DNA from: Sinomicrobium weinanense
Lineage (GTDB): Bacteria > Bacteroidota > Bacteroidia > Flavobacteriales > Flavobacteriaceae
DNA length: 64,000 nt
Reading direction: 5' to 3'
Assembly (NCBI RefSeq): GCF_018863395.1
Contig: NZ_JAHKRR010000002.1
Coordinates: forward strand, 1-64,000
Both the position numbers and the translations under genes were made by a program. Below, piece by piece: positions 12,718 to 47,067 of this stretch. The notes under the pieces are model-generated. The model was not told where the DNA came from and ran no database searches. It saw nothing but the letters and a program-made list of their open reading frames with translations. The number at the start of each line of letters is the position of its first letter. Position 1 is the stretch's first letter.

Positions 12718-13200
12718 ATGAAATGGCTGAACAAATACCGTACCTCGGTCTTATATACGATTGCCCTATTGCTTTCCATGTTGTTTATGTACACGGGCCT
12801 TACCAAAATCTGGGAAGGTGACCTCTTTTACCATAATATCATCGATTCGCCCATATTCGGAGGGGAGACCAACGCGCTTGTGGCTTCCTGGGCATTCCCT
12901 TTCCTGGAGATCCTGACCGCAATGGCGCTGCTTTGGCCCAAAACCAGACGACTGGGCCTATTCATGGCCCTGGGCCTTTTTTTGGCCATTACCACTTATT
13001 TGACGGCCAATATATATTTCAGTGAATCCATACCCTGTACCTGTCGCACATTTTTCTCCATGTTGGATTGGCATGGACATTTATACCTGACCCTCGGGTG
13101 CCTGGTGATCACTGTTCTGGGCATAATATCGTACCCGACAAAAACCAAGAGAACTTCTACATATAAAACCCGTTTTGTTGCGCAGCAAAGCCAGGAATAA
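12718..13200 (+). CDS. MauE/DoxX-like redox membrane protein, module 1
   Basis: A 160-residue protein with four membrane helices (about 11-28, 55-73, 79-99, 120-138). GLTKIWEGDLFYHNIIDSP after helix 1 is the DoxX/MauE box. The loop before helix 4 carries SIPCTCRTF, a CxC pair at Cys107/109 facing the periplasm. MauE proteins work with thioredoxin-like partners to form or shuffle disulfides in periplasmic proteins. The next gene encodes a small exported two-cysteine protein, so oxidation of that product is a natural guess. A close paralogue begins at 25293 (NSP box, CxC pair and tail organisation shared). Confidence 0.8.
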   Translation: MKWLNKYRTSVLYTIALLLSMLFMYTGLTKIWEGDLFYHNIIDSPIFGGETNALVASWAFPFLEILTAMALLWPKTRRLGLFMALGLFLAITTYLTANIYFSESIPCTCRTFFSMLDWHGHLYLTLGCLVITVLGIISYPTKTKRTSTYKTRFVAQQSQE

Positions 13201-13254
13201 GCTGAAAACCTGTAATAGAGTAGGCACTTAATTATTAACTTAAAACAATTTGAT

Positions 13255-13524
13255 ATGAAAACTAAATTTTTATTGCCTGTACTGGCACTGATATTTGCCA
13301 CAGGTATGTCGTTTGCGACCGCGAATCTGAATGCCGATCCGAATTTTGATTATATTCAAAGGAACGGTTGGGAAATGATTCCTGAAGTTACCACATGTAC
13401 CCCCGATGCTCAACCTTGTTTAGGAGAATCACAATCGGATGGATTAATTTATCAGGTGTTTGATTCACCAAATGAATTAGATCCAAAAAGTGGAAATGGA
13501 GAAGTGGAGGCTGAATTACCTTGA
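13255..13524 (+). CDS. Small exported two-cysteine protein (DUF6520-like), module 1
   Basis: An 89-residue precursor. The signal peptide LPVLALIFATGMSFA is followed by an acidic mature part of about 66 residues with only two cysteines, Cys48 and Cys55 (CTPDAQPC). It resembles the DUF6520 group of Bacteroidota small exported proteins; no function is known for these. The neighbouring MauE-like protein could oxidise the pair to a disulfide. The paralogue at 25891 has a different mature sequence but the same cysteine positions. A hairpin directly follows the gene. A secreted peptide, signal or pheromone, or substrate of the facing M16/SusCD genes are possible roles; all are inference. Confidence 0.75.
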   Translation: MKTKFLLPVLALIFATGMSFATANLNADPNFDYIQRNGWEMIPEVTTCTPDAQPCLGESQSDGLIYQVFDSPNELDPKSGNGEVEAELP

Positions 13525-13539
13525 AAATTCACTTCTTAT

Positions 13540-13567
13540 AGGAGGTGCCCTAATCGAGGCACCTCCT
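13540..13567 (+). terminator. Hairpin between convergent small-protein and M16 genes
   Basis: Perfect 10-base arms AGGAGGTGCC and GGCACCTCCT flank an 8-base loop, 16 bases past the stop of the small exported protein and 11 bases from the end of the convergent M16 gene. The T-run is poor on both sides, so it may act in both directions or need Rho. Confidence 0.6.
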
Positions 13568-13577
13568 TATCATCTTA

Positions 13578-16481
13578 TCACTTACCCATTATGAATTCAT
13601 AACGGTGGTTCTTGTTCAGATATTTTTTTGCCGTCTCCATTACATCTTCAATATCTAGTGATCTAAGGTAATTTTCCACTTCTGTTTTGTCTAACCACGT
13701 AGCATCATACTTATAATATTCATATAATCTCTCGTCAATTCTTGAATTATTAAAGAAGCCAGTGGAATATTTACCATCGATTTCTTTAAAGACCCGTTCA
13801 ACCTCATTCTTATTAATTGTGCCATTCTTTATTTCTTCCAACAATTGGTGAATCGTCTCCTGCAACAATCGGAATTTTTTGTCTTTTTCCTTTTCAGTTC
13901 CCATGGCATTGAAATCTATCCTTAAACTAATTTCGTACCTGGCACACTCAAAATTATATCCCCCTGAAGCCGCAGGAGTGTACACTGAAAGATCATGATT
14001 TCGCAATACAGTAAGAAGACGATTTCTGATCATTGTAATTAAGGCATCCACTTTTATTCTCTCTTTCCAGCCAAAATTTGCAGTGACAATATATTTTTCT
14101 GCATATACCATACCTTCGTTCCCCTCGGCATAATCCGGTACAGGAATCCTATATAATATTGGTCCATTGTCCAGTTTTATCCTCTTTTGATAATCTGATT
14201 TACTTTCTTTTTTAGATGCTCTGTCTGGTAAATTGCCCAAATATTGCTGGACCATATTTATAACGACATCCTTATCATAGTCTCCGGTTATTGTAAAGGT
14301 AAAATCCCTGGTCCTACCGAAGAGATCTTTGTAGTGCTCGTAGCTTTTGTCTATAGTAACCTCGGGTAGTCCATCCACCATCGCTGTCGTATTGTTATAA
14401 TTAATGTTATAATCCCCGGTCAATGATTTCATTGCGTTGGCCATATCATTGCGAGGCATATGCCATTTTACATAATTCTCAATGCTACTTTTCTTCCAAT
14501 CAGAAAATGCATCAGGATCCTTCCGAGGTTCACGGATATATAAATATATTAGCTGAAACATTGCTTCCATATTTTCGGCCATAGCCTCACCATTTATACC
14601 CGTTTCAGCTACATCGATGTATGGACGTACTTTTACCTTGTTTTTTATTGATGATAAATACCGGTTGATCTCAAACTTGTTCTTGTCACTAATTCCTGCG
14701 TTAAGTACAATGTCTGCGGCGTGTATTGCTGAAAAATAATCTCTTCCTTCAAAACATTGGGCCCCATGTGGATTGAAACCGTGTATTTTGACTTTTCTAG
14801 AGTCTTCATTTAGTGGCAGTAGGACAACCTTAATTCCATTATCCAGAACCAATTCATGAGCACCGGTATCCTGGTTTATTCCTTTATCAGTAAAATTTCG
14901 TTTGGTCAACGACAATACTTTATTTTCCTGCATGATATTTTCAGGTATTTCCGGTGGTCGATATGCTTGTACCGGAGCATTCCAGGCATTTTTTATCCAG
15001 GAACGTATATCGTTTTCATTCAAGGATAAAACGCTGTTGCCCTCGTAGGCTGCAATACCTATGTCATCGGGCATAGCAGGGATCAAGGCTTTTATTTCCT
15101 CGTTTACCTGAGCTAAGGACAACCCTTGGAACCAGTCTTTTAAATATGTACTCTTATCTTCTGGCAGTGCTTCGCCATAAATAAAATGAGAGCTCATTTC
15201 TTTAATCCAAGAGGACCCACTTTTACTTTTGCCATTATCCATTTGCTGAAGCTCTTCTTTCTTCAGCATCTTCCATTCCTCTTCCAACAATCCGTATTGA
15301 TAGAGCTGACGTAAAAGCCTGGTGGCATTTTCAGTTCCTTTTTTTGCACTATTGTTCTTGTTATCTATAAAAATAGTGAACATATTTCGTGCTTGGAATA
15401 TGCCAAAAGCCTTGTTATAAGTCAGATACTTGTTGAATGTACTGAAATCCATATTATATTGTTCTTCTTCAAGGCGGGTACGAATCAGAAGGGCTTCGGA
15501 TAAGATGTTCCAGAGCAATTCTCGTTTCAACCCTACTTCGGTATGGAGCTTAGCCTTGGTATAGGGATCCCTATACCCTAAATGAAGTATTACTTGTTGC
15601 TTGTCAATGTTATCCTGATTCTCCGGGGTGCAAGCTACCTTTGCAAACTGAGGTTCTTGATTAAAGTATATCGAATCCGTATTCTTCCATCTCCTTGGAT
15701 TTCTTGGCGTGGGGATTTTTGAGAATCTTTTTTTCACCATAGCTTCCAAACCATCCACATCCTTTATATTACCCACTATCATTAGTGCACCCAGGTCCGG
15801 ACGGTACCAGTCGTTATAGTAACGTCTTAAAATGTCTGGCTCAAAAGTTCTGTAATATTCCAAGTGATAATTCAAATCATTTTGCCAGTTTCTTGCCCCG
15901 GGATCTATTTTTGATTGCAGTTCAATTCTTGATATCTCCCTAAGGTCGGCGCCGTTGGAGTTCTTTCCAATTCGTTCCTGTATCAAGACTCCTCTTTCCG
16001 CATCAATCTCTTTGGTGGTAAGTTTAAGGCCTCCACCAACAATGTCTTTGAACCATAATATCCCTTTTTTAAGGGCATATAGATTCTTTTCAGAAATTTC
16101 AAAAACATATTGTGTATAATATTTTGAGGTAAAAGCAGTAATATCGCGAAACTCCATTTCTAGACTGTCCAATTGGTTTGGAGCCTTAATTCCCAATGGG
16201 AAATTCTCACTGGACTTGAAAGCCATATGTTCCATAAAATGGGCTATGTCAATCTGATCCATGTCCTGTATACTTGAGCCTCCTTTTAGAATCAAGCTCA
16301 TGTTTATCTTATCGGACGGGGAGGAAGTAGGTTTAATATAATAGGTAAAACCATTAGGAAGTTTCCCATAACGGATGCTTTGATCTAGTGGTACGGTGTC
16401 ATTATTTGGTTGTTTTTGGCATTGCATTGAAAATGCTGTACCTATCAATATTAGAATAAAATAAATATGATTGAATTTCAT
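13578..16481 (-). CDS. Two-domain M16 zinc peptidase, lipoprotein, module 1
   Basis: About 967 residues from the ATG at 16481, which gives the lipoprotein signal FILILIGTAFSMQC (Cys21); the frame also extends 16 codons upstream without a signal. The inverted zinc motif HFMEH is at about 81-85 and the third ligand Glu lies 77 residues later in DAERGVLIQE, the exact M16 spacing, so it should be an active pitrilysin/PqqL-type enzyme. A second, inactive M16 half fills the C-terminus (ELVLDNGIKVVLLP, then FTFTITGDYDKD). M16 enzymes degrade short peptides in a closed chamber. Last gene of the ECF-FecR-SusC-SusD-M16 run. Confidence 0.9.
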   Translation of the reverse strand: MKFNHIYFILILIGTAFSMQCQKQPNNDTVPLDQSIRYGKLPNGFTYYIKPTSSPSDKINMSLILKGGSSIQDMDQIDIAHFMEHMAFKSSENFPLGIKAPNQLDSLEMEFRDITAFTSKYYTQYVFEISEKNLYALKKGILWFKDIVGGGLKLTTKEIDAERGVLIQERIGKNSNGADLREISRIELQSKIDPGARNWQNDLNYHLEYYRTFEPDILRRYYNDWYRPDLGALMIVGNIKDVDGLEAMVKKRFSKIPTPRNPRRWKNTDSIYFNQEPQFAKVACTPENQDNIDKQQVILHLGYRDPYTKAKLHTEVGLKRELLWNILSEALLIRTRLEEEQYNMDFSTFNKYLTYNKAFGIFQARNMFTIFIDNKNNSAKKGTENATRLLRQLYQYGLLEEEWKMLKKEELQQMDNGKSKSGSSWIKEMSSHFIYGEALPEDKSTYLKDWFQGLSLAQVNEEIKALIPAMPDDIGIAAYEGNSVLSLNENDIRSWIKNAWNAPVQAYRPPEIPENIMQENKVLSLTKRNFTDKGINQDTGAHELVLDNGIKVVLLPLNEDSRKVKIHGFNPHGAQCFEGRDYFSAIHAADIVLNAGISDKNKFEINRYLSSIKNKVKVRPYIDVAETGINGEAMAENMEAMFQLIYLYIREPRKDPDAFSDWKKSSIENYVKWHMPRNDMANAMKSLTGDYNINYNNTTAMVDGLPEVTIDKSYEHYKDLFGRTRDFTFTITGDYDKDVVINMVQQYLGNLPDRASKKESKSDYQKRIKLDNGPILYRIPVPDYAEGNEGMVYAEKYIVTANFGWKERIKVDALITMIRNRLLTVLRNHDLSVYTPAASGGYNFECARYEISLRIDFNAMGTEKEKDKKFRLLQETIHQLLEEIKNGTINKNEVERVFKEIDGKYSTGFFNNSRIDERLYEYYKYDATWLDKTEVENYLRSLDIEDVMETAKKYLNKNHRYEFIMGK

Positions 16482-16601
16482 GAGTTGTTTGAATTTTTGA
16501 AACATTAAGTCATGGAAAAACTTCCCCAATCCAGAAAATGTTGGGGAAATTGATTGAATAATTTAATTAAAGGGCTTTCTCTTATTCCTAAGTTGTGTCA
16601 G

Positions 16602-17993
16602 TTAGTAGCCGTTGTTTTGCCCGAGATTGGTATTTTTCATGCGTTCCTGTTCCGGAATCGGATAGAGCACATCTGTATCTTGCCATAACGGATTGCCAGT
16701 TCCCAATATTTCAGAAGCCTTTTCAGTTCGTTTCAGGTCAAACCATCGGTGTCCCCATTCGGTAAACAATTCCTTTTTGCGTTCACCAAAGATTTCTTCA
16801 ATCAAACTAGCCTGATCGATTTCCGGATTCGTCTCCGACAACAAATCCAAACCAGCTCTTTCTTTGATTTTATCTATATCTGAGATTCCACCTGATAGAT
16901 TACCTTGTCGGGCACGTGCTTCTGCCCGGATCAGATACTGTTCGGCCAACCGGAGCACCATGGAGTATTCGGTGATATTGTTAAAACTTTGGCCATCTTT
17001 ATATTTAAAGGGATAGTAGGCTTCTCTATCCTGGCTATATCCAATCCAGTAATTTTTCCTTTTGTCGATGTCTTCAAAAGAATTTGCATACTCATTAGTT
17101 AGAGCTAGTCTCGGAACTGGAGAAACAAATAGCCAACCATCATACGTATTAGTAAAAATATTGCCCCTTCCCGCTGGGGAAATTTGCCAGATGGACTCTC
17201 TACTATTCATCAGAAATACCTGGTCCAATTGCATTAATAGTTCATAATGTGCTGATTGATTAATCACATTTGAACTATGTATCTCCGCTAAAGACCATTC
17301 CTGCTGGAATAAATATACCCTTGCCAAAAGTGCCTCTGCCACAAATCGGTTTACATTCGTACGTTCGCTATCAAAATATTCATCGGTTAACAAACCAACA
17401 GCCTTTTCAAGATCGGATACTATCTGGGTATAAACCTCTTCAATAGCTGTCCTGCTCATCTGCGCATTGATCCTGTAATCTGTACTTAAAATTAAAGGGA
17501 CTTCCCCATACAGATTGACCAATTGGAAATAGGTAAAGGCCCGAATAAACTTGGCTTCTCCTTCCAGTTGATCCCCGACCTCTTCTGATATTTGTTCCGA
17601 TGCCAATACCCCTTCCAATAAAGAATTGCACATATAGATAACATTATAAGCACTGCTCCATAGAGAGAGGTTGGCCGTATTATTGGGCTGAATTTCATTT
17701 TCCTGATATTCCAGAGAAACCTGGTCTGAAGCTTCATTCAAAGTAAAAATTTCTTTGGCACTTAAGCCCGCTAAAGCGGTTACACTATTGTTTCCTCCGC
17801 AAAATGTAGCCGTTCGGAACAGTTCGTTATAGATGCCCTGCATGGCGCTTCGTGCTGTTTCATCATTGCCAAAAACACTTGTCACAGTCAGTTTATCGAC
17901 TGGAGCATCCACTTCCACAAAGTCTTCACATGAGATAATTAGGAGCGTTATGAGGCTTAGTACAATTGTTGTTTTATGAATACTTTTTTTCAT
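16602..17993 (-). CDS. RagB/SusD-family lipoprotein, module 1
   Basis: About 463 residues from ATG 17993, giving the lipobox LLIISC; the upstream extension in frame overlaps the SusC gene and lacks a signal. Typical SusD landmarks: SLWSSAYNVIYMCNSLLEG, FIRAFTYFQLVNLYGEVPLI, YSMVLRLAEQYLIRAEARA, GHRWFDLKRTEKA and PIPEQERMKNTNLGQNNGY at the end. It forms the surface lid of the SusC channel and binds the ligand. RagAB-type pairs import peptides, others glycans; the adjacent peptidase gene favours peptides here. The start lies next to the SusC stop, consistent with one operon. Confidence 0.92.
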   Translation of the reverse strand: MKKSIHKTTIVLSLITLLIISCEDFVEVDAPVDKLTVTSVFGNDETARSAMQGIYNELFRTATFCGGNNSVTALAGLSAKEIFTLNEASDQVSLEYQENEIQPNNTANLSLWSSAYNVIYMCNSLLEGVLASEQISEEVGDQLEGEAKFIRAFTYFQLVNLYGEVPLILSTDYRINAQMSRTAIEEVYTQIVSDLEKAVGLLTDEYFDSERTNVNRFVAEALLARVYLFQQEWSLAEIHSSNVINQSAHYELLMQLDQVFLMNSRESIWQISPAGRGNIFTNTYDGWLFVSPVPRLALTNEYANSFEDIDKRKNYWIGYSQDREAYYPFKYKDGQSFNNITEYSMVLRLAEQYLIRAEARARQGNLSGGISDIDKIKERAGLDLLSETNPEIDQASLIEEIFGERKKELFTEWGHRWFDLKRTEKASEILGTGNPLWQDTDVLYPIPEQERMKNTNLGQNNGY

Positions 17994-18003
17994 TATTAAA
18001 TTT

Positions 18004-21000
18004 TTAGAAATTAAGTTGAAGCCCTGCGGTAATGGTGCGCAAGTTGCCAAAGCTCATTCCACTTAAAGCAAACTCCGGGTCTAGTCCTTCATAACCGGTA
18101 AGAGTAAATAGGTTTTGTCCATTGACAAATATTTTACATCCATTAATACCTATAGTTCGCAGGGTGCTTGGTGGCAAAGAGTAGCTTAGAGAGAGGGTTT
18201 TTAGTCGTATAAATGAGGCATCTGTATAAGCCAGGTCTGTGTTCTGAGCGTTCAAATATGCCTGAAAGGAACTTGAGGATTGAGAAATATTCTGAAAAGG
18301 ACTTTCCTCTTCCAAGGCAGAAACCACAGCTGCCCTTTTAGCACCATATCGACCAGCATCAAATAAGGATAATTTACCCTCTTGCTTGACAAACTGCAAA
18401 AGAAATTGAAGAGAAAAATTTTTATAGGTTAAGGTATTGTTGATTCCTCCGAATAGTTGTCTGGTCTGGTCCTTGATAAGTACTCGATCTTGGTAATCAT
18501 ATCTACCATCATCATTGATGTCCGTAAAAGTATATAAACCAGATTCTGGGTCAACGCCTTCGTATTGATATAATAGGTTAATATTCAAGGGATGGCCCAC
18601 CCGATATGTATTGGCATAGGATGAATCCTCCAATCCAGGGTAGCTTACCAATTTATTACTAGGAAGGCTCACATTGAAAGTGGTTTGCCAACTAAAATGT
18701 TTTCTCCGTAAATTGAATGAAGAAAACTCCACTTCCCATCCGGTATTCTGTACCGTAGCCGGAAGATTTGCTTGAACGGTATTAAATCCGGTTAACCCTG
18801 GCAAGGGATAACCTACCAATTGGTCAGATGAACGATTACGGTACCAACTTACCCCAATGTTAACCATATCTTTTAAAAAACCTAATTGAATCCCTGTTTC
18901 CAGTTTTTTATTCACTTCCCAGGAGTAATCCGGATTGGCCAAGCTAGTCGGGAATAGTCCACCAGGAGCCACTGTGGCCTCATAGGCATTCAAGTAACCA
19001 TAATCCCCAATCTGGTCATTCCCAGTGGTACCATAACTACCGCGCAATTTTCCAAAACTTAAAAATTCCAGATGTTTTCGTACCCATTTTTCCTCGGAGA
19101 AAATCCAGGCTGCCCCGATGGCCCCAAAATTGGCCCATCGTTTTCCCGGGCCAAAACGGGAGGAACCATCCCTTCTTCCTGTAAGGTTCAGATAATACTT
19201 CTGGTTCCAGTTAAGCCCCAAACGCCCAAAAACAGCATGATACCGATAATCAGTAGTTTGATTGATTCCCTGGGTCAATGTCTCTGCCGCAGCCAAATTA
19301 CCAATAATTGATTCCGAAACGTATCCGGATCCTGTAACCTGCATTTGGTTATTTTGGCTTTGTTGAAATGTGGTACCAACCAAAACATCGAAGTGAACAC
19401 TTCCAATATTAGGGCTATATACCAATTGGGGTTCAATGATCCAAGAATCCCGCTTTCCTTCTAAATGCGTTGATCTGTGATCTCTGGTTTGCCAGGTTGC
19501 GGGATTGTAAGATCTTTTGGGAATTTTTACGATTTCTGTACTCTGGAAGCTAGTATAGCCAATGCTTGTCTTAAACGTTAGGTCGTTTATGATTCTATAA
19601 TTGAAGTTTATATTAGATATGAGATTATTGGATTTTGTTTTGCTGGTATTGAAATATCCCTGAATAGGGTTATTTAAACTAGCTTCTGTCCATTCCTCCC
19701 AATGTAGGCTTCCATCTTCGTTAAATATTGGGGGTGCATTTGGGGAAAGGCCAGAAATTAGGTTGCCAGATACTCCCATCAAAAAATTAATGTCCACACC
19801 ATAATTTAATCTTAACCCCAGAGAAAATTTTTGATCCTTGGAACTATGATCAAGGGAAAGACCAACCGTGGCTTTCTGATATTTGGAATCTCCGGGATAG
19901 ACAGTGCCCTGTTCCTGATATCCACCGTTCATTTGGAACTGGGTATTAGCATTACCACCGGAAACTGATAGATTGGCGTTGGTCACCCAGGCATTGCCAC
20001 CCCAAAATACGTCCTGCCAATCCGTTTCACGGTTTTGGTCCCATAAGAGTAAATCATATGCATTTCTTGTTGTTGGTTCTACGCCATCATTTTCAAATGC
20101 CCTATTGCGGATTTGTAAGTATTGCTTTGTATTGAGCAGATCCAGTCGGTTGGGAACCGTGGATACGCCACTGTAAATTCGTGCCTGAAATGCTGTTTTG
20201 CCCTCAAACCCTTTCTTAGTCGTAATCAAAATCACGCCATTTGCTCCCCTGGAACCATAAATAGCGGTGGCATCAGCATCCTTTAACACTTCGATGCTTT
20301 CAATATTAGAAAGGTTAAGGGTACTTAAAGGATCAATACCTTTTAATGTCAAATTACTATTGTTACTTTCTACGGGAGTGGCATTGATGGGCATGCCATC
20401 AATGATGTATAAAGGGTAGTTTCCCTCATCGCGTAAGCTGTTCTGCCCACGGATCCGGATCGTAGGTGCAGTTCCGGGCAAGTCACCGCCAGGAGTGACT
20501 TCCATTCCTGCTACACGTCCCTGAAGTGCCTGAAGTGGGCTGACCAAGGGTTGTAACTCGACCTCCTTTGATGTCACCTTGGATATATTCCCCGTGCGGA
20601 CTTTTTCGGTAGTGGTGTAATACCCGGCATTCAATACCACCTCTCCCAAATCGGTCACCGCTTCTTTAAGGGTTATTGCAATCTCAGTACGTCCCCGTAC
20701 GGAAACCTCTTTTGTTTCGTAACTCACATTGGTAACAACAAGCACATCGGTCGGGGTACATGCCAGTTCGAACACTCCATCCTCGTTGGTGTAGACACCG
20801 GTTTTTGAATTTTTAATGAGAACATTTACAAATGGAACGGGGACACCCTGGGTATCTATAACTTTACCCCGAACGCGATGTTGCTGTGCATTATGGTTTA
20901 TCTTTTCTTTAGGTTGGGGTGAAGATGCTCTTTTGGTAAGGACAATATGTTTGTCCATGATCTTATAAGTGATGTCGGTATCCTTAAATACCATATCCAA

Positions 21001-21291
21001 CACCTGTGAGATCTTTTCTTTTTTTACACGAACATCGAGCTTGCGGGTATTATCGAGTTCTTTATGACTGAATAGAAACTTAAAATCGGTCTTTGCCTCT
21101 ATAGCCGCTATAATTTGCGGTACGGTTACCGATTTTAGTTGTAGTGTGATCTTTTCGTTTTGGGCATACCCCGGCTCTGCATTGATCTGAAATAGGGCGA
21201 TAAAAAAGAGAGCCAGTGTGAGTTTCATTTTAAGATCAAAATTTAAAATAAGAGCATGCCAATGCCATACAGCATTAATGTATTTTTTCAT
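18004..21291 (-). CDS. SusC/RagA TonB-dependent transporter with signalling (STN) domain, module 1
   Basis: A 1095-residue outer-membrane protein. It has a signal peptide (LFFIALFQINAEPGYAQ), an STN domain at about 50-120 (ITLQLKSVTVPQIIAAIEAK), a carboxypeptidase-like domain at about 140-215, the plug with LQGRVAGMEVTPGG and LYIIDGMPI, then the SusC marker SIEVLKDADATAIYGSRGANG and a 22-strand barrel ending in aromatic LNF. The STN domain is the part that contacts FecR, so ligand binding should be reported to the sigma factor encoded two genes away. It pairs with the downstream SusD. Confidence 0.93.
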   Translation of the reverse strand: MKKYINAVWHWHALILNFDLKMKLTLALFFIALFQINAEPGYAQNEKITLQLKSVTVPQIIAAIEAKTDFKFLFSHKELDNTRKLDVRVKKEKISQVLDMVFKDTDITYKIMDKHIVLTKRASSPQPKEKINHNAQQHRVRGKVIDTQGVPVPFVNVLIKNSKTGVYTNEDGVFELACTPTDVLVVTNVSYETKEVSVRGRTEIAITLKEAVTDLGEVVLNAGYYTTTEKVRTGNISKVTSKEVELQPLVSPLQALQGRVAGMEVTPGGDLPGTAPTIRIRGQNSLRDEGNYPLYIIDGMPINATPVESNNSNLTLKGIDPLSTLNLSNIESIEVLKDADATAIYGSRGANGVILITTKKGFEGKTAFQARIYSGVSTVPNRLDLLNTKQYLQIRNRAFENDGVEPTTRNAYDLLLWDQNRETDWQDVFWGGNAWVTNANLSVSGGNANTQFQMNGGYQEQGTVYPGDSKYQKATVGLSLDHSSKDQKFSLGLRLNYGVDINFLMGVSGNLISGLSPNAPPIFNEDGSLHWEEWTEASLNNPIQGYFNTSKTKSNNLISNINFNYRIINDLTFKTSIGYTSFQSTEIVKIPKRSYNPATWQTRDHRSTHLEGKRDSWIIEPQLVYSPNIGSVHFDVLVGTTFQQSQNNQMQVTGSGYVSESIIGNLAAAETLTQGINQTTDYRYHAVFGRLGLNWNQKYYLNLTGRRDGSSRFGPGKRWANFGAIGAAWIFSEEKWVRKHLEFLSFGKLRGSYGTTGNDQIGDYGYLNAYEATVAPGGLFPTSLANPDYSWEVNKKLETGIQLGFLKDMVNIGVSWYRNRSSDQLVGYPLPGLTGFNTVQANLPATVQNTGWEVEFSSFNLRRKHFSWQTTFNVSLPSNKLVSYPGLEDSSYANTYRVGHPLNINLLYQYEGVDPESGLYTFTDINDDGRYDYQDRVLIKDQTRQLFGGINNTLTYKNFSLQFLLQFVKQEGKLSLFDAGRYGAKRAAVVSALEEESPFQNISQSSSSFQAYLNAQNTDLAYTDASFIRLKTLSLSYSLPPSTLRTIGINGCKIFVNGQNLFTLTGYEGLDPEFALSGMSFGNLRTITAGLQLNF

Positions 21292-21340
21292 ACTTTTGAA
21301 TTGATTTTAGTTAATTCGGTTTGACTTTAATCTAATCTTG

Positions 21341-21362: not shown

Positions 21363-21415
21363 TTTTTTCTTCGATCTGTTATTTCTCCATAAGCCGTTGG
21401 TGTTAAAGGTTTAAG

Positions 21416-23532: not shown

Positions 23533-23697
23533 ACCTTTAAGTTTAGGGGATCTTTGTAAAATAGTGGTTATAAAAGTATTAAAATTATGACAAAAATCAC
23601 AATTTGTGAATAAATAAACGTAACTATGACGTTTATAATTTACTGTTATACAAAGAATAAACCCTACAGCCTGCGGCACAATAATCCGCATATTCAT

Positions 23698-25890: not shown

Positions 25891-26175
25891 ATGAAACATT
25901 TAAAATTAGTATTACCGATGTTGGCCTTTGTATTGGCCATTGGACTGTCGTTTGCGTTTGTAAGCGAAGATGAAGCACTTGTAACAGGCTATTATGGGCC
26001 TTCAGGAAGTCGTTTGCCTATTCAGGTAGATTGTGATAGTGGAATTAATGAATGTGAGATACAGTTCGTAGATGAAAATGATCAACCAATTGGCTCACCA
26101 CTATTAGTTTATCCTGATCAAACTAGTATGACTCCTTTACCATCGCCAAGTGAAGTACCATACAAAGTTCACTAA
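25891..26175 (+). CDS. Small exported two-cysteine protein (DUF6520-like), module 2
   Basis: A 94-residue precursor: signal peptide LPMLAFVLAIGLSFA, then an acidic mature region with just two cysteines at 48 and 55 (CDSGINEC). The mature sequence hardly resembles its module 1 counterpart, but the signal-peptide style, length, cysteine positions and proline-rich or acidic tail do. That pattern, fixed framework and variable content, is typical of secreted signals, toxins or recognition proteins. A strong terminator follows. Confidence 0.75.
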   Translation: MKHLKLVLPMLAFVLAIGLSFAFVSEDEALVTGYYGPSGSRLPIQVDCDSGINECEIQFVDENDQPIGSPLLVYPDQTSMTPLPSPSEVPYKVH

Positions 26176-26196
26176 AAATCATTTTGATGACAAAGA

Positions 26197-29174: not shown

Positions 29175-29216
29175 TTTACAAATTTTAAATGATTGCAATA
29201 ATTTAAGAGCTATGGA

Positions 29217-30659
29217 TTAATAGCCTTCGTTTTGAGTCAGGTTTGGGTTTTTGATACGTTCTTCTTCAGGTATGGGAAACCAGGTATCTGTACGCTGCCA
29301 TAAAGGTTTTATAGAGGATAGCACTTCAGAGGCTTTTTCGGTACGCTTTAGGTCCAGCCAACGATGCCCCCATTCGGCAAACAATTCCTTTTTTCTTTCT
29401 TCCATAATCACTTTCAGCAATGCTTCCTGGCCTATCCCCGGATCTATATCAGATAATAAGGCAATCCCGGCCCTTTGGCGCAATTTATCTATATCGGCAA
29501 TCGCTTCAGAAAATTTGTTCTGGCGGGCACGGGCTTCTGCCCGTATCAGGTATTGTTCAGCCAATCGTAACACCATAGAATATTCGGGAATGTCCAGGCC
29601 AGAAGGAACACGATATTTATACTTATTGGCATAATAATTAGCAACTTCTCCATTCCGATCTAATTCCTGGCCTATCCAATCCGTAAATCGTTTGTCTTCT
29701 GCATCTATCGTATTGATAAAACTATCTGCTAATTTTATGTCACCCAATATTATAATACCGGGTATAAAAGGAAACCGAATAAAAGCCATCGCTTCATTGG
29801 TTACTCGTTGCGCCTTTTCTCCTTCAGGAGATATTTGCCATATAGCTTCTTTATTATTGGCAAAAAAAACCCGGTTCAGATCTTCTAAAATCTCATAAGT
29901 ACCTGTTTGCGCTATGACCCGGCTACTTAATTCTTCCGCTTTGGACCAATTGCCGCGATAAAGGTATACTCGTGCACGAAGGGCCAAAACAACATACAGG
30001 TTAATATGAGTACGTTCCCCTTCTTCATAATCTTTTACATTATCTAAAAGGACGATTGCTTCATCCAGATCAGTTGCTATTTGTTCCCATATTTCTTCTG
30101 AGGAATTTCGTGAAGCCAGGGCATTATTACTGTAATCCGTTGTTAACAATAAAGGGGCATCTTTATACAAGTTTGTTAAGTAGAAGTAACAAAATGCACG
30201 TATAAACAAAGCCTGTCCCATTAACTGATTTTTTATACTATCCGTAACACCTGTTGAACCAGACAATCCTTCTAATACACTATTTGCCAAATAAATGATA
30301 TTATATGCACTACTCCATAATGACAAATTTGCACCGGCATCAGGAGAATCTATCGTGGAAATTTCATTTTGCCAAAAAGGGCCTAATGTTGTATGTGTGG
30401 AACGTATCGGTTCAATGATATCTGCGGACATCCCTCCTAACACCGTGACCGAATTTTGCCACCCATTTGAAAATTGAGCCTTCATTAGTTGATTATAAAT
30501 TCCAGTTACAGCAGCGATTGCGGTTTCATCGTTCGCAAAAACATTTTCACTGACAATCTGAAAATTGGGCGTATTTATATCCACAAAATCCTCGCAGGAT
30601 ATCGTTGTTAAAAAAACAGTGATACTCACCATCCTTATAAAATATCTTTTCCAATACAT
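29217..30659 (-). CDS. RagB/SusD-family lipoprotein, module 2
   Basis: A 480-residue lipoprotein with lipobox TTISC (Cys22). It shares with its module 1 paralogue the segments SLWSSAYNIIYLANSVLEG, FIRAFCYFYLTNLYKDAPLL, EYSMVLRLAEQYLIRAEARAR, EWGHRWLDLKRTEKASEVL and the tail NPNLTQNEGY. The surface-exposed parts in the middle differ more, as expected if ligands differ. It is the lid of the SusC channel encoded 10 bases upstream in the same operon. Confidence 0.92.
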   Translation of the reverse strand: MYWKRYFIRMVSITVFLTTISCEDFVDINTPNFQIVSENVFANDETAIAAVTGIYNQLMKAQFSNGWQNSVTVLGGMSADIIEPIRSTHTTLGPFWQNEISTIDSPDAGANLSLWSSAYNIIYLANSVLEGLSGSTGVTDSIKNQLMGQALFIRAFCYFYLTNLYKDAPLLLTTDYSNNALASRNSSEEIWEQIATDLDEAIVLLDNVKDYEEGERTHINLYVVLALRARVYLYRGNWSKAEELSSRVIAQTGTYEILEDLNRVFFANNKEAIWQISPEGEKAQRVTNEAMAFIRFPFIPGIIILGDIKLADSFINTIDAEDKRFTDWIGQELDRNGEVANYYANKYKYRVPSGLDIPEYSMVLRLAEQYLIRAEARARQNKFSEAIADIDKLRQRAGIALLSDIDPGIGQEALLKVIMEERKKELFAEWGHRWLDLKRTEKASEVLSSIKPLWQRTDTWFPIPEEERIKNPNLTQNEGY

Positions 30660-30669
30660 AGTTAAAAAT

Positions 30670-33600
30670 TTATAATTGAAGTTGTAGTCCTGCGGTTACA
30701 GTTTGTAATGCAGGTAATGACGAACCTCCGCTGATTAATTCTAAATTTAGCCCGGAGTAGGAAGTGATTGTAAAAAGATTTTGGGCAGCACAAAAGATTC
30801 TAAGTTTTTTTATACCAATTGTATTTAATACCTCCGAAGGAAGATCATATCCAAATGAAACGGTTTTTAATCGAAGGAAAGAGGCATCAACTATACCTCT
30901 TTCACTTAGTAAAGCAAGAGTATATGCCGTTTTGGTCGCAGGAGAATTTTCAATATATAAATCCCCACTTTTCCATGCTTTATAGTCCTCCAAAGGACGG
31001 TTATAGGGATTTCCAGGTGGTTGTGAAAAAATAAAAGGTTTTACGGCTGTTTGTTTGGCAAAATCCCATAGAAAACTTAATCGTACTCCTTTATAAGAAA
31101 AATTATTGGTGATCCCGCCATAATATTGCCTTCCTATATCTTTGATAACCACACGATCTTGGTAATCATAGCTGCCGTCCTCGTTAACATCCAATACCTG
31201 GTATAGTCCTGTTTCAGGGTCAATGCCATTATATTGATACCTTAACAGGATATTTAACGGATGCCCTACCCTATATCTATTAGCATAAGAAGTTTGGTCG
31301 ATATTAGGGAAATTCACCAGTTTATTCTTTGGAAAACTGATGTTAAAAAATGTTTGCCATTTAAAATTTTTGGATTTGATATTCAGGGTAGACAATTCCA
31401 ATTCCCAACCTGTGTTCTCCACCGTTGCAGGTAAATTAGCCTGTACCGAGGTAAACCCGGTAATAGCTGCTAGTGGATATCCCACCAGTTGATTGGAAGA
31501 TCGATTTCGGTACCAGCTTACTCCAAGATTAATCCGGTCTTGTAGGAATCCAACTTCCATAGCGGCTTCCAGCTTTTTGTTTTCCTCCCAAGCAAAATCC
31601 GGGTTGAATAGCTGTGTAGGATATAAACCATTAGGACCGGGTGTTGCCTCATATGCATCTAAATACTGGTAATCCCCGATCTGGTCACTACCCGTAACAC
31701 CATAACTCCCCCGGAATTTTCCAAAACTCAAAAAAGGAAGATTTTTTTTCACGAAGGGTTCCTCGCTAAATATCCATGCTGCTCCAACAGCCCAAAAATT
31801 GGCAAAACGGTTATTGGGGCCAAAACGGGAGGAACCGTCCCGCCGTCCTGTAAAGTTGATGAAGTATTTTTGCTGCCAATTATAGCCTAACCGGCCATAA
31901 AGTGCACTGTATTTGTAGTGTATATTACGACCATCTCCAAACGACCTGTATAATTCGGCCGCCGGTATATATCCTAACAATATTTCCGATACAAATCCTT
32001 CTCCCCATACTCCAAATCCATCACTTTCATTTTTCTGAAAAGTGGTTCCTACCAAAGCGTCTATGGCTCCCTTTCCAATAGTTGAATGATAGTTCAGTTG
32101 TGGTTCAATAATCCATGAGAGTCGCTTTTGATAGTTTTGCGTTGCTACATGTTCAATATCCTCCCGTTCCCAAGGTGCTGCTGTAGTATTGGGTATTTTC
32201 CCCTTACTTTCCCTGACGGTATAGGTATATCCCATATTGGTTTTAAAATTTAACCCTGAAAACAGTTCATAGGATAATCCGAGGTTTGCCACCAGGTTAT
32301 TTACTTGTCCCACAGTAATACTATTTTGTTCCGCTAATGGGTTATCATCCACCCGGGAATATCCCCATTCCTCCCAATGCAAAGAACCATCTTCATTATA
32401 CAAGCGAGGGGCGTTTGGAGGCAGTTGATATGCTCTACGTACTAAATCACGTACCCCTGAGGCTTCACTTTTATCCACGCCATAGTTAACGGAAAGATCA
32501 ATTCTCAACTTTTTATTCTCTGAGGTATGATTAAGGTTTACCGCTGCTGTGACTTTATGGTAGTTATTGTCCAAAGGGAATATTGTCCCTTGTTTATGAT
32601 AAGAACCGCCTAAACGAAAAGAAGTGGTAGCATTTCCTCCTGATGCTGCAAGATTTATGTCCGTCACAGAAGATGATCCTCCTAATAATTTTTCTGGCCA
32701 ATCGGTATACCGATTGGTATCCCAAAGTAACAGATCCCATGCATCTTCCTGATTAGGTTCAAGTCCTGCATTAGCATACGCAGCTTTCCGCATACTAATA
32801 TACTGTTCTGTATTGAGGATCTTCATCTTTCTACCTACCTGTGCAAAACCGTTATACCACCTGGCCTGAACTTCTGTTTTTCTATTGTACCCGGCTCCCT
32901 TTTTAGTGGTAATCAATACTACTCCGTTAGCTCCGCGTGAACCATATATGGCAGTAGCATCCGCATCTTTTAAGACCTCTATGCTTTCAATATTGGATAA
33001 ATTCAACGTGCTTAGAGGGTCCCAATCATTTAAAAACAAATTTTCAGTATCAATGGGTGCGGAGTTTATAGGTACACCATCTATGATGTATAAAGGATAA
33101 TTTCCTTCGTCCCTCAAACTGTTTCGACCTCTTATTCTTATAATAGGAGCATTCCCCGGTACGCCACTTTGCTGTTGGATTTCAACTCCTGCCATACGGC
33201 CTTGCAATGCTTCAATAGGGCTTACAATAGGTTGCAGTTCTATTTCTTCTGAAGTTACCTTAGCTATATTCCCTGTTCGCTCCCGCTCCTTTACGGTATA
33301 GTAACCGGCATTTACCTCTGCTCCTTTTAAGGTCATTACATCCTCTTCCATCTGCACTTCGACAGGTTCCCGGTTAAGAAGAGGTATCTCCACGGTCTTA
33401 TACCCCAAATAAGAAAAGATGAGAACATCTTTGGGAGATACCTTTATACTGAAACTACCGTCTATATCGGCCAGGGTGCCACGCCGTGTGCTTTTTACAA
33501 TAATATTGGCTCCGGCTAGGGGCTCACCATTGGTATCGGTTACCGTACCGGAAACCACAAAATATTGTTGACTATCCCCTGTAGATTTAGGAGCAGGTGG

Positions 33601-33987
33601 GGCATCCTGCTCCTTGGGGGCCTTAATTCTTGGTGTTAGAATAATGTTTTTATCTGCAATCTCATAAAACACCCCGGTGTCTTTAAACAAGGTGTCCAGG
33701 ATCGTTTCTATACCCTTTCTACGTACCCTTATAGTTACTTTACGCGACAGGTCTACCGCGGTTTCCTTATAGTGAAACCGAAAATCCGTTGTCCGTTCCA
33801 CCTCGTCTAAAACCTTTTGCAGAGTTGCCTCCTTCATATCGAGGGATATCTTGGTGTTTTGCGCATACCCGCTATGGGCATGGATCTGAAACAGGACGAC
33901 CAGAAAAAAGAGTAATGAGAGTTTCATCTTCAGGTCTAATTTTGGGAAAAGGGCAAGCCACTTTCCCTGGTTGGAAATAATTTTCAT
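30670..33987 (-). CDS. SusC/RagA TonB-dependent transporter with STN domain, module 2
   Basis: A 1105-residue protein with the same plan as module 1: signal FFLVVLFQIHAHSGYAQ, STN domain (ISLDMKEATLQKVLDEVERT), carboxypeptidase-like domain (VSGTVTDTNGEPLAGANIIV), plug (ALQGRMAGVEIQQQSGVPG, PLYIIDGVPI), SIEVLKDADATAIYGSRGANG and the barrel. The STN domain links it to the FecR/ECF pair upstream. Compared with module 1, long barrel stretches such as GSSRFGPNNRFANFWAVGAA are nearly identical while loop regions vary, pointing to an old duplication followed by change of ligand. Confidence 0.93.
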   Translation of the reverse strand: MKIISNQGKWLALFPKLDLKMKLSLLFFLVVLFQIHAHSGYAQNTKISLDMKEATLQKVLDEVERTTDFRFHYKETAVDLSRKVTIRVRRKGIETILDTLFKDTGVFYEIADKNIILTPRIKAPKEQDAPPAPKSTGDSQQYFVVSGTVTDTNGEPLAGANIIVKSTRRGTLADIDGSFSIKVSPKDVLIFSYLGYKTVEIPLLNREPVEVQMEEDVMTLKGAEVNAGYYTVKERERTGNIAKVTSEEIELQPIVSPIEALQGRMAGVEIQQQSGVPGNAPIIRIRGRNSLRDEGNYPLYIIDGVPINSAPIDTENLFLNDWDPLSTLNLSNIESIEVLKDADATAIYGSRGANGVVLITTKKGAGYNRKTEVQARWYNGFAQVGRKMKILNTEQYISMRKAAYANAGLEPNQEDAWDLLLWDTNRYTDWPEKLLGGSSSVTDINLAASGGNATTSFRLGGSYHKQGTIFPLDNNYHKVTAAVNLNHTSENKKLRIDLSVNYGVDKSEASGVRDLVRRAYQLPPNAPRLYNEDGSLHWEEWGYSRVDDNPLAEQNSITVGQVNNLVANLGLSYELFSGLNFKTNMGYTYTVRESKGKIPNTTAAPWEREDIEHVATQNYQKRLSWIIEPQLNYHSTIGKGAIDALVGTTFQKNESDGFGVWGEGFVSEILLGYIPAAELYRSFGDGRNIHYKYSALYGRLGYNWQQKYFINFTGRRDGSSRFGPNNRFANFWAVGAAWIFSEEPFVKKNLPFLSFGKFRGSYGVTGSDQIGDYQYLDAYEATPGPNGLYPTQLFNPDFAWEENKKLEAAMEVGFLQDRINLGVSWYRNRSSNQLVGYPLAAITGFTSVQANLPATVENTGWELELSTLNIKSKNFKWQTFFNISFPKNKLVNFPNIDQTSYANRYRVGHPLNILLRYQYNGIDPETGLYQVLDVNEDGSYDYQDRVVIKDIGRQYYGGITNNFSYKGVRLSFLWDFAKQTAVKPFIFSQPPGNPYNRPLEDYKAWKSGDLYIENSPATKTAYTLALLSERGIVDASFLRLKTVSFGYDLPSEVLNTIGIKKLRIFCAAQNLFTITSYSGLNLELISGGSSLPALQTVTAGLQLQL

Positions 33988-34036
33988 AATTTAGTATTCG
34001 ATTTAGTTACTTGACAGAATTAAATCACAGCTTTTA

Positions 34037-34062
34037 TCGGAGGGTGCTCTAACACCCTCCGA
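34037..34062. repeat. Hairpin in the FecR-SusC gap, module 2
   Basis: Perfect 10-base arms TCGGAGGGTG and CACCCTCCGA flank a 6-base loop; GCTTTTT follows on the plus strand. It is the counterpart of the hairpin at 21341-21362. Confidence 0.5.
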
Positions 34063-34184
34063 TGCTTTTTGCCCGGAGCCATTCCCACTTCAGGTACTAA
34101 ATACCCGGGCAGCAATTCGTGGATTACTGCTTCATACAGCTATTTTTATGGTTAAACGCTTTTGCTCCCCCTTGACCGACAGGG

Positions 34185-35387
34185 TTAATTTGGGGGTGTA
34201 ATGATTACGGTATTTCCGTCCATCCGGTAATTAAAGGGTTGCAACTTTTTAAGAATGTTTAATACAAGCTCCAATGGGGCTCCTTGGGTAAATGAAGAAG
34301 TTAAGTGTTCAGTATTGATCTTGGGGTAAGAGTTATCGATTGTTATATTATAGTGGCGTTCCAGTTTTTTTAGGATCAGGTCAAAGCGGTCATTTAAGAA
34401 ATAGAGTTCTCCGGCAGTCCAGGCCGTATACTTACGAATATTCACTTTCTCTACATCAATCCTGCCGTTTTCAAAGGTTGCCTTTTGTCCTGGTACGATC
34501 TTCAATGGTTCATTTTGTACAATGGAATCTTCCGTTCCATACACTCCTACACTACCTTCTACCAGAACCGTATAGGTGTTCTGCTCATTTTTATAACTGG
34601 TTACATTAAACCGGGTGCCATATACCCGGGTATTCATTTTTTCTGTAACCACGGTAAAAGGCCTTTCTTTGTCCTTTTCCACCTCAAAAAAGGCCTCCCC
34701 ATCCAGATAGACATCCCTGGGCTTTCCCGGAAGGAACTGCACGGGATAACGCAACTTAGAGCCGGCATTTAAAGTAATATGAGAACCATCGGCAAGTACT
34801 AATCCAAATTTTTTACCATAAGGTACAGTTAAAGTATTATAGACCGGCTCTGTTGCGTTTTGTTGTGTTTTGCTATAAACAAGTAAATCCTTATCCTGGT
34901 TTCCCAAGGCTTGGCCATTCCCTGTGGTGATCACCTTACTCGTAGTTTCATCGATGACCTGCTCAGTTCCATCTTGTAATTGCAGTGTGATTTGTGGCGG
35001 TTGGGATGCAGTCTCTTTATCCAACAGCCCCATGTTGTTTATAAAAAAGAGACTCATTCCCAAAATACAAACCGCCACTATAGTCGTTAAAACCCTTTTT
35101 CGTTCATGCCATTTTTTTAATGGTGTATTGCCGCTTCTGCCCGGACCTGACTGTATTTCATTTTGAACTTTTCCCCAGATCTCCTCAGGTAGCCTGCCAA
35201 AAGAACTTTTTTCAGACAGTTGCATCACTATACGCCTTGCAGCCTTGACATCTTCCCTTTTATGAGGAAAATTGGCCAGGAAGGTTTCCCAGAAACGGCA
35301 GTTCTCAGCATTTGGATGATATACCCATTGTATAAAGTACTCATCTGCTGCAAAATCCATCTTATTATAAGTGGTATACTTCATCAT
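34185..35387 (-). CDS. FecR-family anti-sigma factor, module 2
   Basis: A 400-residue protein with an N-terminal cytoplasmic part, a membrane helix at about 99-117, a FecR domain (LTVPYGKKFGLVLADGSHITLNAGSKLRYP, VYLDGEAFFEVEKD, GTRFNVTSYKNEQ) and a C-terminal DUF4974 (LELVLNILKKLQPFNY). It shares long segments with the module 1 FecR. It would gate the sigma factor encoded upstream and receive the signal from the STN domain of the downstream SusC. Two adjacent ATGs make the exact start uncertain by one codon. Confidence 0.92.
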   Translation of the reverse strand: MMKYTTYNKMDFAADEYFIQWVYHPNAENCRFWETFLANFPHKREDVKAARRIVMQLSEKSSFGRLPEEIWGKVQNEIQSGPGRSGNTPLKKWHERKRVLTTIVAVCILGMSLFFINNMGLLDKETASQPPQITLQLQDGTEQVIDETTSKVITTGNGQALGNQDKDLLVYSKTQQNATEPVYNTLTVPYGKKFGLVLADGSHITLNAGSKLRYPVQFLPGKPRDVYLDGEAFFEVEKDKERPFTVVTEKMNTRVYGTRFNVTSYKNEQNTYTVLVEGSVGVYGTEDSIVQNEPLKIVPGQKATFENGRIDVEKVNIRKYTAWTAGELYFLNDRFDLILKKLERHYNITIDNSYPKINTEHLTSSFTQGAPLELVLNILKKLQPFNYRMDGNTVIITPPN

Positions 35388-35480
35388 ATAAAACCGTGTA
35401 ATAATAAAGGCTTCTATAGTGTAGTGCAGAAAAAAGGGGTTCTTGTTTAAAAAAAATGGCTCTTTTTTTATACAACCATT

Positions 35481-36125
35481 CTAAAAAAAAGATTTACAGC
35501 GATATACAAGAAGAAAATACATTTCTTTTTTTCCCAAAACGGACCCCAAAACCTGCAATGCGGTACGGAGGCCATAGGTAACTTTAGTATAAGATAGTCC
35601 GGTAATTTTGGCAATTTCCTTATTGCTTAGCTGGACGTAATACCGGAGATGAATGAGTTCCTGGTGCCTTTTGGTGAGCTTTTGAATAGCTTTTTGAATT
35701 TCGTTGTTCCGGAGGAAGGTGTTTTCATTATCTATAAACTCATGCTCTGGTGAGGAAGTGGTGTCTCGCTCAAAATCGGAATCCACCAAAGTAAGCATCA
35801 TCCCGCTTTCTTTAGCTTTTTTAAAAATTTTGCGGCGCATAATGGTCAGCAGGTAGGGGCCTACTTTTTCAACCTTTTTATTATAAGACTGCCTGTTTTC
35901 CCATAATTCAATAAAAAGATCCTGAATGATATCCTTTACCAGGTCTACATCACCCACCAACCGAATACCATAAGAAAGTAAATCATTAATATATTGCGAA
36001 TAAAGCGTATGGAAAGCAGTAGTGTTTCCTTCTATAAACCGGTTCCATAATATGCTTTCCGGATCTTGGCTTTTATGGTCCAAATCTCCGAATACCTGAT
36101 GGCCTAATGTGAATTCTGCTTTCAT
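35481..36125 (-). CDS. ECF sigma factor, module 2
   Basis: A 214-residue protein. Region 2 is FIEGNTTAFHTLYSQYINDLLSYGIRLVGDVDLVKDIIQDLFIELW, and region 4 is KLTKRHQELIHLRYYVQLSNKEIAKITGLSYTKVTYGLRTAL. It ends in a short aromatic, hydrophobic tail (EMYFLLVYRCKSFF) like its paralogue. It heads the minus-strand run sigma-FecR-SusC-SusD-M16, so the whole module 2 transport set is probably under its control. Confidence 0.9.
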   Translation of the reverse strand: MKAEFTLGHQVFGDLDHKSQDPESILWNRFIEGNTTAFHTLYSQYINDLLSYGIRLVGDVDLVKDIIQDLFIELWENRQSYNKKVEKVGPYLLTIMRRKIFKKAKESGMMLTLVDSDFERDTTSSPEHEFIDNENTFLRNNEIQKAIQKLTKRHQELIHLRYYVQLSNKEIAKITGLSYTKVTYGLRTALQVLGSVLGKKEMYFLLVYRCKSFF

Positions 36126-47060: not shown

Positions 47061-47067
47061 AACAACG

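Follow-up and report, generated by a model that had tools for sequence, protein, structure and literature searches.

The stretch of DNA analyzed here, referred to as the window, comprises 64,000 nucleotides of Sinomicrobium weinanense (Bacteroidota, Flavobacteriaceae; assembly GCF_018863395.1, contig NZ_JAHKRR010000002.1, positions 1 to 64,000). It contains two copies of a gene cassette in which genes for a MauE-family membrane protein and a small exported protein of the DUF6520 family face genes for a SusC/SusD outer-membrane importer (SusCD) and a peptidase. An original prediction, made from the sequence alone, had described the two copies as complete, diverged, and identical in gene order and orientation, and this was confirmed at the predicted coordinates for all seven genes (Table 1). 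In each copy, MauE and DUF6520 are encoded on the forward strand, and an M16 peptidase, SusD, SusC with an STN domain, FecR, and an extracytoplasmic function (ECF) sigma factor on the reverse strand, the two groups being oriented tail-to-tail. Protein identity between the copies is 37% for MauE, 26% for DUF6520, 33% for M16, 50% for SusD, 51% for SusC, 51% for FecR, and 34% for ECF, a range indicating that the doubling is old or derived from two sources.

Every gene of both copies matches its family above the cut-off, with the exception of the N-terminal M16 domain of copy 2, where M16_C (PF05193) scores well above its cut-off and PF00675 slightly below. The window MauE proteins reach 76.5 and 100.4 bits with PF07291 (cut-off 27), the DUF6520 proteins 62 and 55.7 bits with PF20130 (curated cut-off 25.4), and the importer proteins belong to the SusC/RagA and SusD/RagB families (TIGR04056, 693 bits, in copy 1; PF07980 in both copies). 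The individual features read from the sequence also held: the small protein belongs to the DUF6520 family, begins like a signal peptide, and has conserved cysteines, the cysteine pair of MauE reads CTC in the first copy and CSC in the second, the HxxEH zinc motif of M16 is kept in both copies, and STN, FecR, and ECF accompany both importers.

Table 1. Cassette genes and genes of the carrier element in the window.
Feature	Coordinates	Strand	Basis
Copy 1 MauE, 160 aa, membrane protein, CTC pair	12718..13200	+	PF07291 E 3e-21; alignment
Copy 1 DUF6520 small exported protein, 89 aa, two Cys after signal-like start	13255..13524	+	PF20130 E 6.9e-17; alignments
Copy 1 M16 peptidase, 983 aa, slot enzyme, HFMEH intact	13578..16529	-	PF05193, PF00675; motif
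Copy 1 SusD	16602..18050	-	PF14322, PF07980; in cassette SusD clade
Copy 1 SusC with STN	18004..21291	-	PF07715, PF07660, TIGR04056
Copy 1 FecR	21416..22681	-	PF04773, PF16344
Copy 1 ECF sigma factor, start codon uncertain	22834..23697	-	PF08281
AraC-type regulator, weak PAS match, upstream of copy 2 MauE	24151..25056	+	PF12833
Copy 2 MauE, 166 aa, CSCGG	25293..25793	+	PF07291 E 1.2e-28
Copy 2 DUF6520, 94 aa, two Cys	25891..26175	+	PF20130 E 6.5e-15
Copy 2 M16 peptidase, 955 aa, HTIEH intact	26331..29198	-	PF05193 above, PF00675 just below cut-off; motif
Copy 2 SusD	29217..30659	-	PF07980, PF14322; in cassette SusD clade
Copy 2 SusC with STN	30670..33987	-	PF07715, PF07660
Copy 2 FecR	34185..35387	-	PF04773, PF16344
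Copy 2 ECF sigma factor	35481..36125	-	PF04542, PF08281
MobC of carrier element, divergent from copy 1 cassette	11839..12276	-	PF19514
Relaxase of carrier element	10559..11851	-	PF03432
Coupling protein, YWFCY type, of carrier element	8560..10542	-	PF14293, PF02534
CTnDOT-type transfer genes (TraG P-loop, TraJ, TraM, DUF4138 named)	43149..52064	+	family matches
Serine recombinase, end overlaps tRNA-Pro (56050-56125)	54537..56105	+	PF00239, PF07508

Linkage of the two halves of the cassette

The small-protein half and the importer half were found together whichever half served as the anchor. Within the same genome, three further MauE/DUF6520/SusCD loci lie beyond the window, giving six DUF6520 genes in five places, each within about 2 kb of a MauE gene and all facing SusCD. 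Among the relatives anchored on MauE, the best 80 of at least 114 were retained (set A; mostly Flavobacterium, together with Sinomicrobium, Muricauda, Chryseobacterium, Cytophagales, Chitinophaga, Flavitalea, and others), and DUF6520 was present in 73 of these, SusC in 69, and SusD in 66. Anchoring on DUF6520 outside the own genome yielded 24 loci (set B; 21 above the Pfam cut-off and three below), the six own-genome hits at the five places and three weak hits (G290, G225, G289) being left out; the two sets have one or more genomes (or near twins) in common, as the SusD sequences of L063 and L111 are identical. MauE, SusC, and SusD occurred together in 22 of the 24 loci, the two misses being L109, a hit that contains a stop codon and is overlooked by the profile, and L117, an isolated DUF6520 hit. 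In 16 shifted control regions of 20 kb, taken from the contigs of the loci in 12 genomes at a distance of 100 or 200 kb, MauE and DUF6520 were each found 0 times, SusC twice, and SusD once.

The arrangement of the two halves is equally regular. Across the 109 MauE cassettes that were read (two from the window, three from elsewhere in the genome, and those of sets A and B), SusD lies within 9 kb downstream in 95, and the orientation is tail-to-tail in 95/95. Among the 14 cassettes lacking a facing SusD, seven have less than 3.6 kb of sequence left.

The reverse test employed a profile of the cassette SusDs, run on 61 genomes of one genus, probably Flavobacterium, in many of which only 26 candidates were scored. 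A total of 41 hits exceeded 530 bits, a line chosen after viewing the list, with the next hit at 491 bits, and DUF6520 was found in 36 of them: 27 adjoin a Pfam DUF6520 hit, and reading of the other 14 loci revealed nine more. At L181, DUF6520 lies about 10 kb from SusD. Among the five remaining hits, L184 and L188 run off the contig, L183 holds a 49-residue DUF6520 remnant, and no DUF6520 was found at L175 (about 3 kb of contig left) or L182, both top SusD hits.

The cassette SusDs also form one clade (support of 97 in the Shimodaira-Hasegawa-like approximate likelihood ratio test) apart from 33 other SusDs, in a tree of 28 chosen cassette SusDs, the 30 best-scoring of the 73 SusD_RagB matches of this genome (a few of which are split genes), and five other rows, built with a quick method that gave long-branch warnings. 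Two of the 35 "other" rows fall inside this clade: one is a second cassette at L022 that the locus edge truncates, and the other, L058, carries MauE, the propeller protein described below, and a two-cysteine open reading frame (ORF) missed by the DUF6520 profile. The reciprocal linkage and the near-empty controls exclude a chance association, and the pairing of MauE/DUF6520 with SusCD is real and conserved; the co-occurrence tally proposed with the original prediction therefore came out in its favor in both directions.

Paired cassettes were also observed at L022, L023, and L025; L022 has the tandem order of the window (the first cassette cut by the locus edge), and L023 and L025 each carry two cassettes back to back. 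Another MauE-family gene of the same genome (L019:12913-14010, 365 aa, CGCFGD type) is surrounded by 19 kb of read sequence without DUF6520 or SusD, so the presence of a MauE-family gene does not by itself imply the module.

Composition and co-divergence of the cassette

The gene between SusD and DUF6520, here termed the slot, is occupied by exchangeable enzymes. In the 95 cassettes with a facing SusD, the slot holds an S9 peptidase in 64, a thioredoxin-like protein in 15, an M16 peptidase in eight, and a met-zincin in two, and is empty in six, so that a peptidase is present in 74/95. Slot and neighbor names derive from profiles built here with Pfam checks on a subset, and the 17 slot proteins scanned with Pfam all received matching assignments (S9 4/4, thioredoxin-like 7/7, M16 4/4, met-zincin 2/2). 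Catalytic motifs are retained throughout: HxxEH in 8/8 M16 proteins, the nucleophile motif GxSxG in 64/64 S9 proteins, and HExxH in 2/2 met-zincins. A TlpA-type CxxC occurs within the first 140 residues of 11/17 thioredoxin-like slot proteins, and at least three of the others have a C-terminal domain. Five of the six cassettes with empty slots have a thioredoxin-like gene upstream of SusC. L016 carries an additional subtilase, and L120 a subtilase-like protein identified by eye. The M16 enzyme envisaged as the peptidase of the module is thus present in both window copies, although it represents a minority choice.

The sensing genes are distributed unevenly. STN was found in 16 of 93 complete SusC proteins, restricted here to the M16 and thioredoxin-like types, with 0/64 in the S9 type, and FecR was found in 0/24 S9-type loci with enough flank to show it. 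The original view of the cassette as a peptide module gains support from the linkage and from a slot nearly always filled by a peptidase or thioredoxin-like protein, whereas its proposal of sensing and feedback does not extend beyond a minority of cassettes, to which both window copies belong.

Several cassettes retain remnants of the S9 gene. Five without SusCD keep only its 3' end (L062:12192-12728, L080:12344-12895, L098:11889-12416, L195 from 10563, and L196 from 9295); by eye, all five share the codon at which homology begins, directly ahead of GL(M/I)GHS(F/Y)GG, and the DNA beyond it is unrelated. Further S9 fragments at G509:C9 and G488:C6 begin at the same query position, as judged from the match range. 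At L080, and perhaps L196, the sequence across the break resembles an internal part of a tra gene, as judged by eye. No complementary 5' fragment was found in 28 genomes at E 1e-15, and no special codon conservation was seen at the break codon of intact S9 genes.

In the alignment of DUF6520 proteins, four cysteines follow residue 25 in 77 of 89, a boundary blurred by ORFs that start too early; the window copies have two cysteines in the mature part and depart from the four-cysteine pattern. The number of cysteines is associated with a predicted periplasmic beta-propeller protein of approximately 370 residues, designated MID, which is present in 92/109 cassettes (fused to MauE in 70 of those) and at three of the five DUF6520 places of this genome. 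Cassettes without the propeller have two cysteines in DUF6520 in 12/12 cases, and those with it have four or more in 87/89 (Fisher 7.6e-14). A second disulfide tied to the propeller was considered and set aside, since the SusD tree provides two supported (three in total) independent contrasts and the association loses its significance once phylogeny is taken into account; L058 seems to add another exception. The model of the L035 MauE-MID fusion, with a mean predicted local distance difference test (pLDDT) score of 87.3, shows helices followed by 26 strands, and Foldseek returned propellers for it, such as the TRIM2 NHL domain (template modeling score 0.63 by target). MID has no conserved cysteine.

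Two other identities for DUF6520 were rejected. The alignment of the mature protein contains no conserved tryptophan, ruling out a subunit with a tryptophan tryptophylquinone (TTQ)-type cofactor. A relation to NVEALA peptides found no support, as PF14055 stayed below its cut-off everywhere searched, namely in 118 genomes of the phylum, with 0 matches in the own genome. The motif TAnnTTTG occurs within 150 bp upstream of DUF6520 in 0/101 cases versus 19/109 for MauE, and a fuller two-part pattern matched nowhere; lacking its own TAnnTTTG, DUF6520 is likely co-transcribed with MauE. Tandem DUF6520 genes, two or three per cassette, were observed at L018, L024, L038, L049, L057, L060, L080, and L082.

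Divergence was compared among 54 dereplicated S9-type loci, 32 of which could be used for TraG of the carrier element. SusC, SusD, S9, and the propeller co-diverge (0.74-0.91), whereas the correlation with TraG is just 0.23, indicating that the cargo genes behave as a single unit moving between element backbones. The propeller follows SusC closely (rho 0.79), in contrast to the MauE domain of the same polypeptide (0.46); the difference persists after correction for reliability (0.88 versus 0.58), and the propeller subsampled to the length of the MauE domain still averages 0.71 with SusC. DUF6520 shares this direction weakly, with 0.36 against SusC (54 loci, Mantel p 0.001) and 0.08 against TraG (32 loci, p 0.06). 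It is the fastest-diverging part, with a mean distance of 0.74 versus 0.45 for SusC, and also the shortest. In 20 close pairs, every cassette part was under purifying selection, and diversifying selection on DUF6520 was not seen. In the same pairs, synonymous divergence in the first 24 DUF6520 codons was low (pooled 0.16 versus approximately 0.5 in neighboring genes, on few codons), which may reflect high expression or a constraint at the start of the message.

Carriage by conjugative elements

The prediction that the cassettes are cargo of an integrative and conjugative element (ICE) was supported, in that they are carried by conjugative elements. In the window, the cassettes are flanked by the coupling protein, relaxase, and MobC genes to the left and by CTnDOT-type tra genes to the right, which together define a CTnDOT-type conjugative element; the serine recombinase at tRNA-Pro probably marks its right edge, and the contig begins at window base 1, on its left side. 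Conjugation genes were found in the fetched flanks of 46/80 loci of set A and 12/24 of set B, compared with 0/16 controls. At single-cassette loci, the gene hits for MobC (26/26), relaxase (24/24), RteC (33/33), and coupling protein (50/51) lie on the MauE side, and 25, 23, 33, and 48 of them, respectively, point away from MauE; XRE genes lie on the SusC side in 41/46 hits. Furthermore, the same genome holds a sister relaxase and MobC, at L172, that lack a cassette. The cassette is therefore cargo at a fixed place in conjugative elements rather than part of their core.

Among the 61 genomes, eight of the 38 YWFCY coupling genes can be placed within about 10 kb of a DUF6520 gene. By Pfam hits, YWFCY is found in 15/23 DUF6520 genomes versus 5/38 others, and two of those five hold DUF6520 genes missed by Pfam (L177, L178, L186). 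No plasmid copies of the copy 2 MauE were found.

The neighbor survey covered 25 families recurring in at least five loci, nine of them named by Pfam and the rest judged by eye. The AraC-type regulator, located between the window copies and not counted among the seven genes, belongs to a family found on the MauE side in 42/42 counted gene hits at other loci. For a DUF7793 protein (e.g., L090:8521-8904), 27/27 counted gene hits lie on the MauE side and point the same way. A protein with TPR and HTH_18 domains adjoins copy 2 (window 36588-38246), and a TPR family similar by eye occurs in 10 loci. Neither a dedicated exporter nor a modification enzyme for ribosomally synthesized and post-translationally modified peptides (RiPPs) is present among the main genes of window 11.8-38.2 kb, all of which were assigned, and none was seen by eye among the recurring neighbors; the same applies to dehydrogenase and MauG-type genes.

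Interpretation and comparison with known systems

The reading that we tentatively prefer, at a level just short of probable, is that an element-borne cassette both makes and takes up an oxidized small protein. Its first half (MauE, mostly the propeller, and DUF6520) would place a small exported cysteine protein into the envelope, with MauE helping to form one or more disulfide bonds in it and the propeller probably handling it; MauE has been found beside predicted cysteine-rich precursors before, and its role in disulfide formation is itself called speculative in that report (PMC7794033). Its second half (SusC, SusD, and the slot enzyme) would form a TonB-dependent importer of the microprotein, once released from the cell, or of a matched ligand, and the slot peptidase or thioredoxin-like protein would open or degrade the DUF6520 product in the periplasm. 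In a minority of cassettes, including both window copies, STN, FecR, and ECF would add a report of uptake. The cassette as a whole would benefit the element. A disulfide-bonded peptide is acted on by two types of enzyme, peptidases and thiol-disulfide enzymes, and their occupation of the slot fits the opening or degradation of such a peptide, as MauE may fit its making. This reading also draws on the reciprocal linkage, the uniform convergent orientation, the single SusD clade, the retained peptidase motifs, and the divergence of the propeller and, weakly, of DUF6520 along with SusC. In addition, the median charge after residue 25 of DUF6520 varies with the slot (M16, -10, n = 8; thioredoxin-like, -3, n = 20; S9, -1, n = 62). 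With less confidence, one may extend this reading to a self-contained outer-membrane microprotein loop spread by conjugation, in which cells bearing the same cassette recognize and consume each other's product, and the slot enzymes serve as alternative off-switches for one kind of disulfide ligand.

Several observations weigh against the preferred reading. Three of the 109 cassettes (L062, L080, L098), and two more elsewhere, have a truncated S9 and lack SusD; four (L027, L030, L036, L075) have room for a facing SusD yet lack it, two of them having SusC in the other direction. Among the 17 lower-scoring SusD hits, seven were read (L189-L194, L197), and DUF6520 was found at L190, L191, and L197 and lacking in the remaining 4/7 (L189, L192-L194), which suggests that the importer half can work alone. 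A crude S9 histidine pattern was detected in just 21/64 proteins, leaving full catalytic triads putative, and no exporter was seen among the 25 recurring neighbor families (mostly by eye). The DUF6520-SusC correlation is modest, concerning a short region with a reliability of 0.46, and mature DUF6520 is under purifying selection (pooled ratio of nonsynonymous to synonymous polymorphism, pN/pS, 0.32). Its predicted structure is unreliable (pLDDT 52.5). The relation of charge to slot type is confounded with phylogeny.

In the strongest competing explanation, SusCD and the slot enzyme scavenge foreign peptides or proteins in the manner of RagAB, while MauE, the propeller, and DUF6520 are envelope accessories (a disulfide-bonded periplasmic subunit, an adaptor, or a barrel regulator) and not cargo. 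We consider this explanation rather unlikely, and prefer the production and uptake of an own product to it. In its favor, three of the DUF6520-less relatives (L192-L194) have SusCD, M16, FecR, and ECF, the propeller tracks SusC more closely than DUF6520 does, no exporter was seen among the recurring neighbors (mostly by eye), and DUF6520 is under purifying selection. Against it, the rapid divergence of DUF6520 is not what one would expect of a structural component of a conserved barrel, although the protein is also the shortest part.

A role of the peptide in self-recognition or mate sensing by the element, with a logic similar to that of PhrI, is improbable. Under this explanation, bearers would secrete and re-import the peptide and adjust transfer, as the constant position and direction of the cassette next to MobC, the relaxase, and the coupling protein, the AraC-type regulator on the MauE side, and the STN, FecR, and ECF genes of both window copies could indicate. 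The S9-type cassettes, however, uniformly lack STN and, where there is room, FecR; conjugation genes lie within the fetched flanks of only part of the loci in both sets; and the sister relaxase and MobC of L172 do without the cassette.

Two further explanations are very unlikely, to a similar degree. Being small, exported, cysteine-containing, and carried by a mobile element, the DUF6520 protein could be a bacteriocin with its own uptake route carried alongside, but the producer would be equipping itself with an uptake receptor, and no immunity or exporter gene was seen among the recurring neighbors (mostly by eye). The combination of a cysteine peptide, TonB-dependent uptake, and, in some loci, FecR and ECF could equally form a peptide metallophore loop, methanobactin-like in outline, but the slot enzymes point to disulfides and proteolysis, and no metal pump or modification enzyme was seen in the same survey. 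Finally, although mobile elements collect unrelated cargo, chance neighbors carried along by the element are refuted for these samples by the reciprocal linkage, the uniform convergent orientation, the single SusD clade, and cargo co-divergence that hardly involves TraG.

Each family involved is already known, and a description of the combination was not found in the literature searched, the coverage of which excludes most subscription papers: searches for DUF6520, NVEALA, "redox-associated membrane protein", and MauE with Flavobacterium and TonB returned no papers, and those for Flavobacterium SusD with integrative and conjugative elements nothing on the cassette. SusCD importers are numerous in Bacteroidota, as the SusD_RagB matches of this genome illustrate, and to our knowledge most of them have no known cargo. 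A whole SusD clade with its own candidate small protein, a fixed gene position, and exchangeable enzymes makes the question of cargo directly testable and may represent a recognition system carried by conjugative elements.

Parts of the cassette resemble several known systems. In the maturation of methylamine dehydrogenase (mau), a MauE-family membrane protein likewise occurs beside a small exported cysteine protein, together with propeller and thioredoxin-like proteins as in the cassettes; the mau system differs in its dehydrogenase and MauG and in the conserved tryptophan that mature DUF6520 lacks. NVEALA peptides are small exported peptides of Bacteroides, and thus of Bacteroidota, as is DUF6520, which belongs to another family. 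Methanobactin (mbn) is a self-made peptide with TonB-dependent uptake and FecR/ECF, and differs in its modification enzymes and metal genes, none of which was seen among the recurring neighbors here (mostly by eye). In ICEBs1, PhrI of the RapI-PhrI pair is a signaling peptide that is exported and re-imported; the likeness of an element-borne exported and re-imported peptide is one of logic only, since the receptor here would be SusCD, and homologues of Rap and Opp were not searched for. RagAB of Porphyromonas gingivalis has the same SusC/SusD architecture, and we know of no exported small protein, MauE, or propeller linked to it. The peptidase neighbors of the cassette SusCD indirectly suggest a peptide or protein substrate, and RagAB is implicated in protein uptake (PMC11817032). 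The candidate RiPP clusters of Streptomyces detected by decRiPPter belong to another phylum than the Bacteroidota cassettes described here, their precursors have at least eight cysteines, and SusCD is unmentioned in the consulted part of the report; as in the cassettes, they place a MauE homologue beside a predicted cysteine-rich precursor (PMC7794033).

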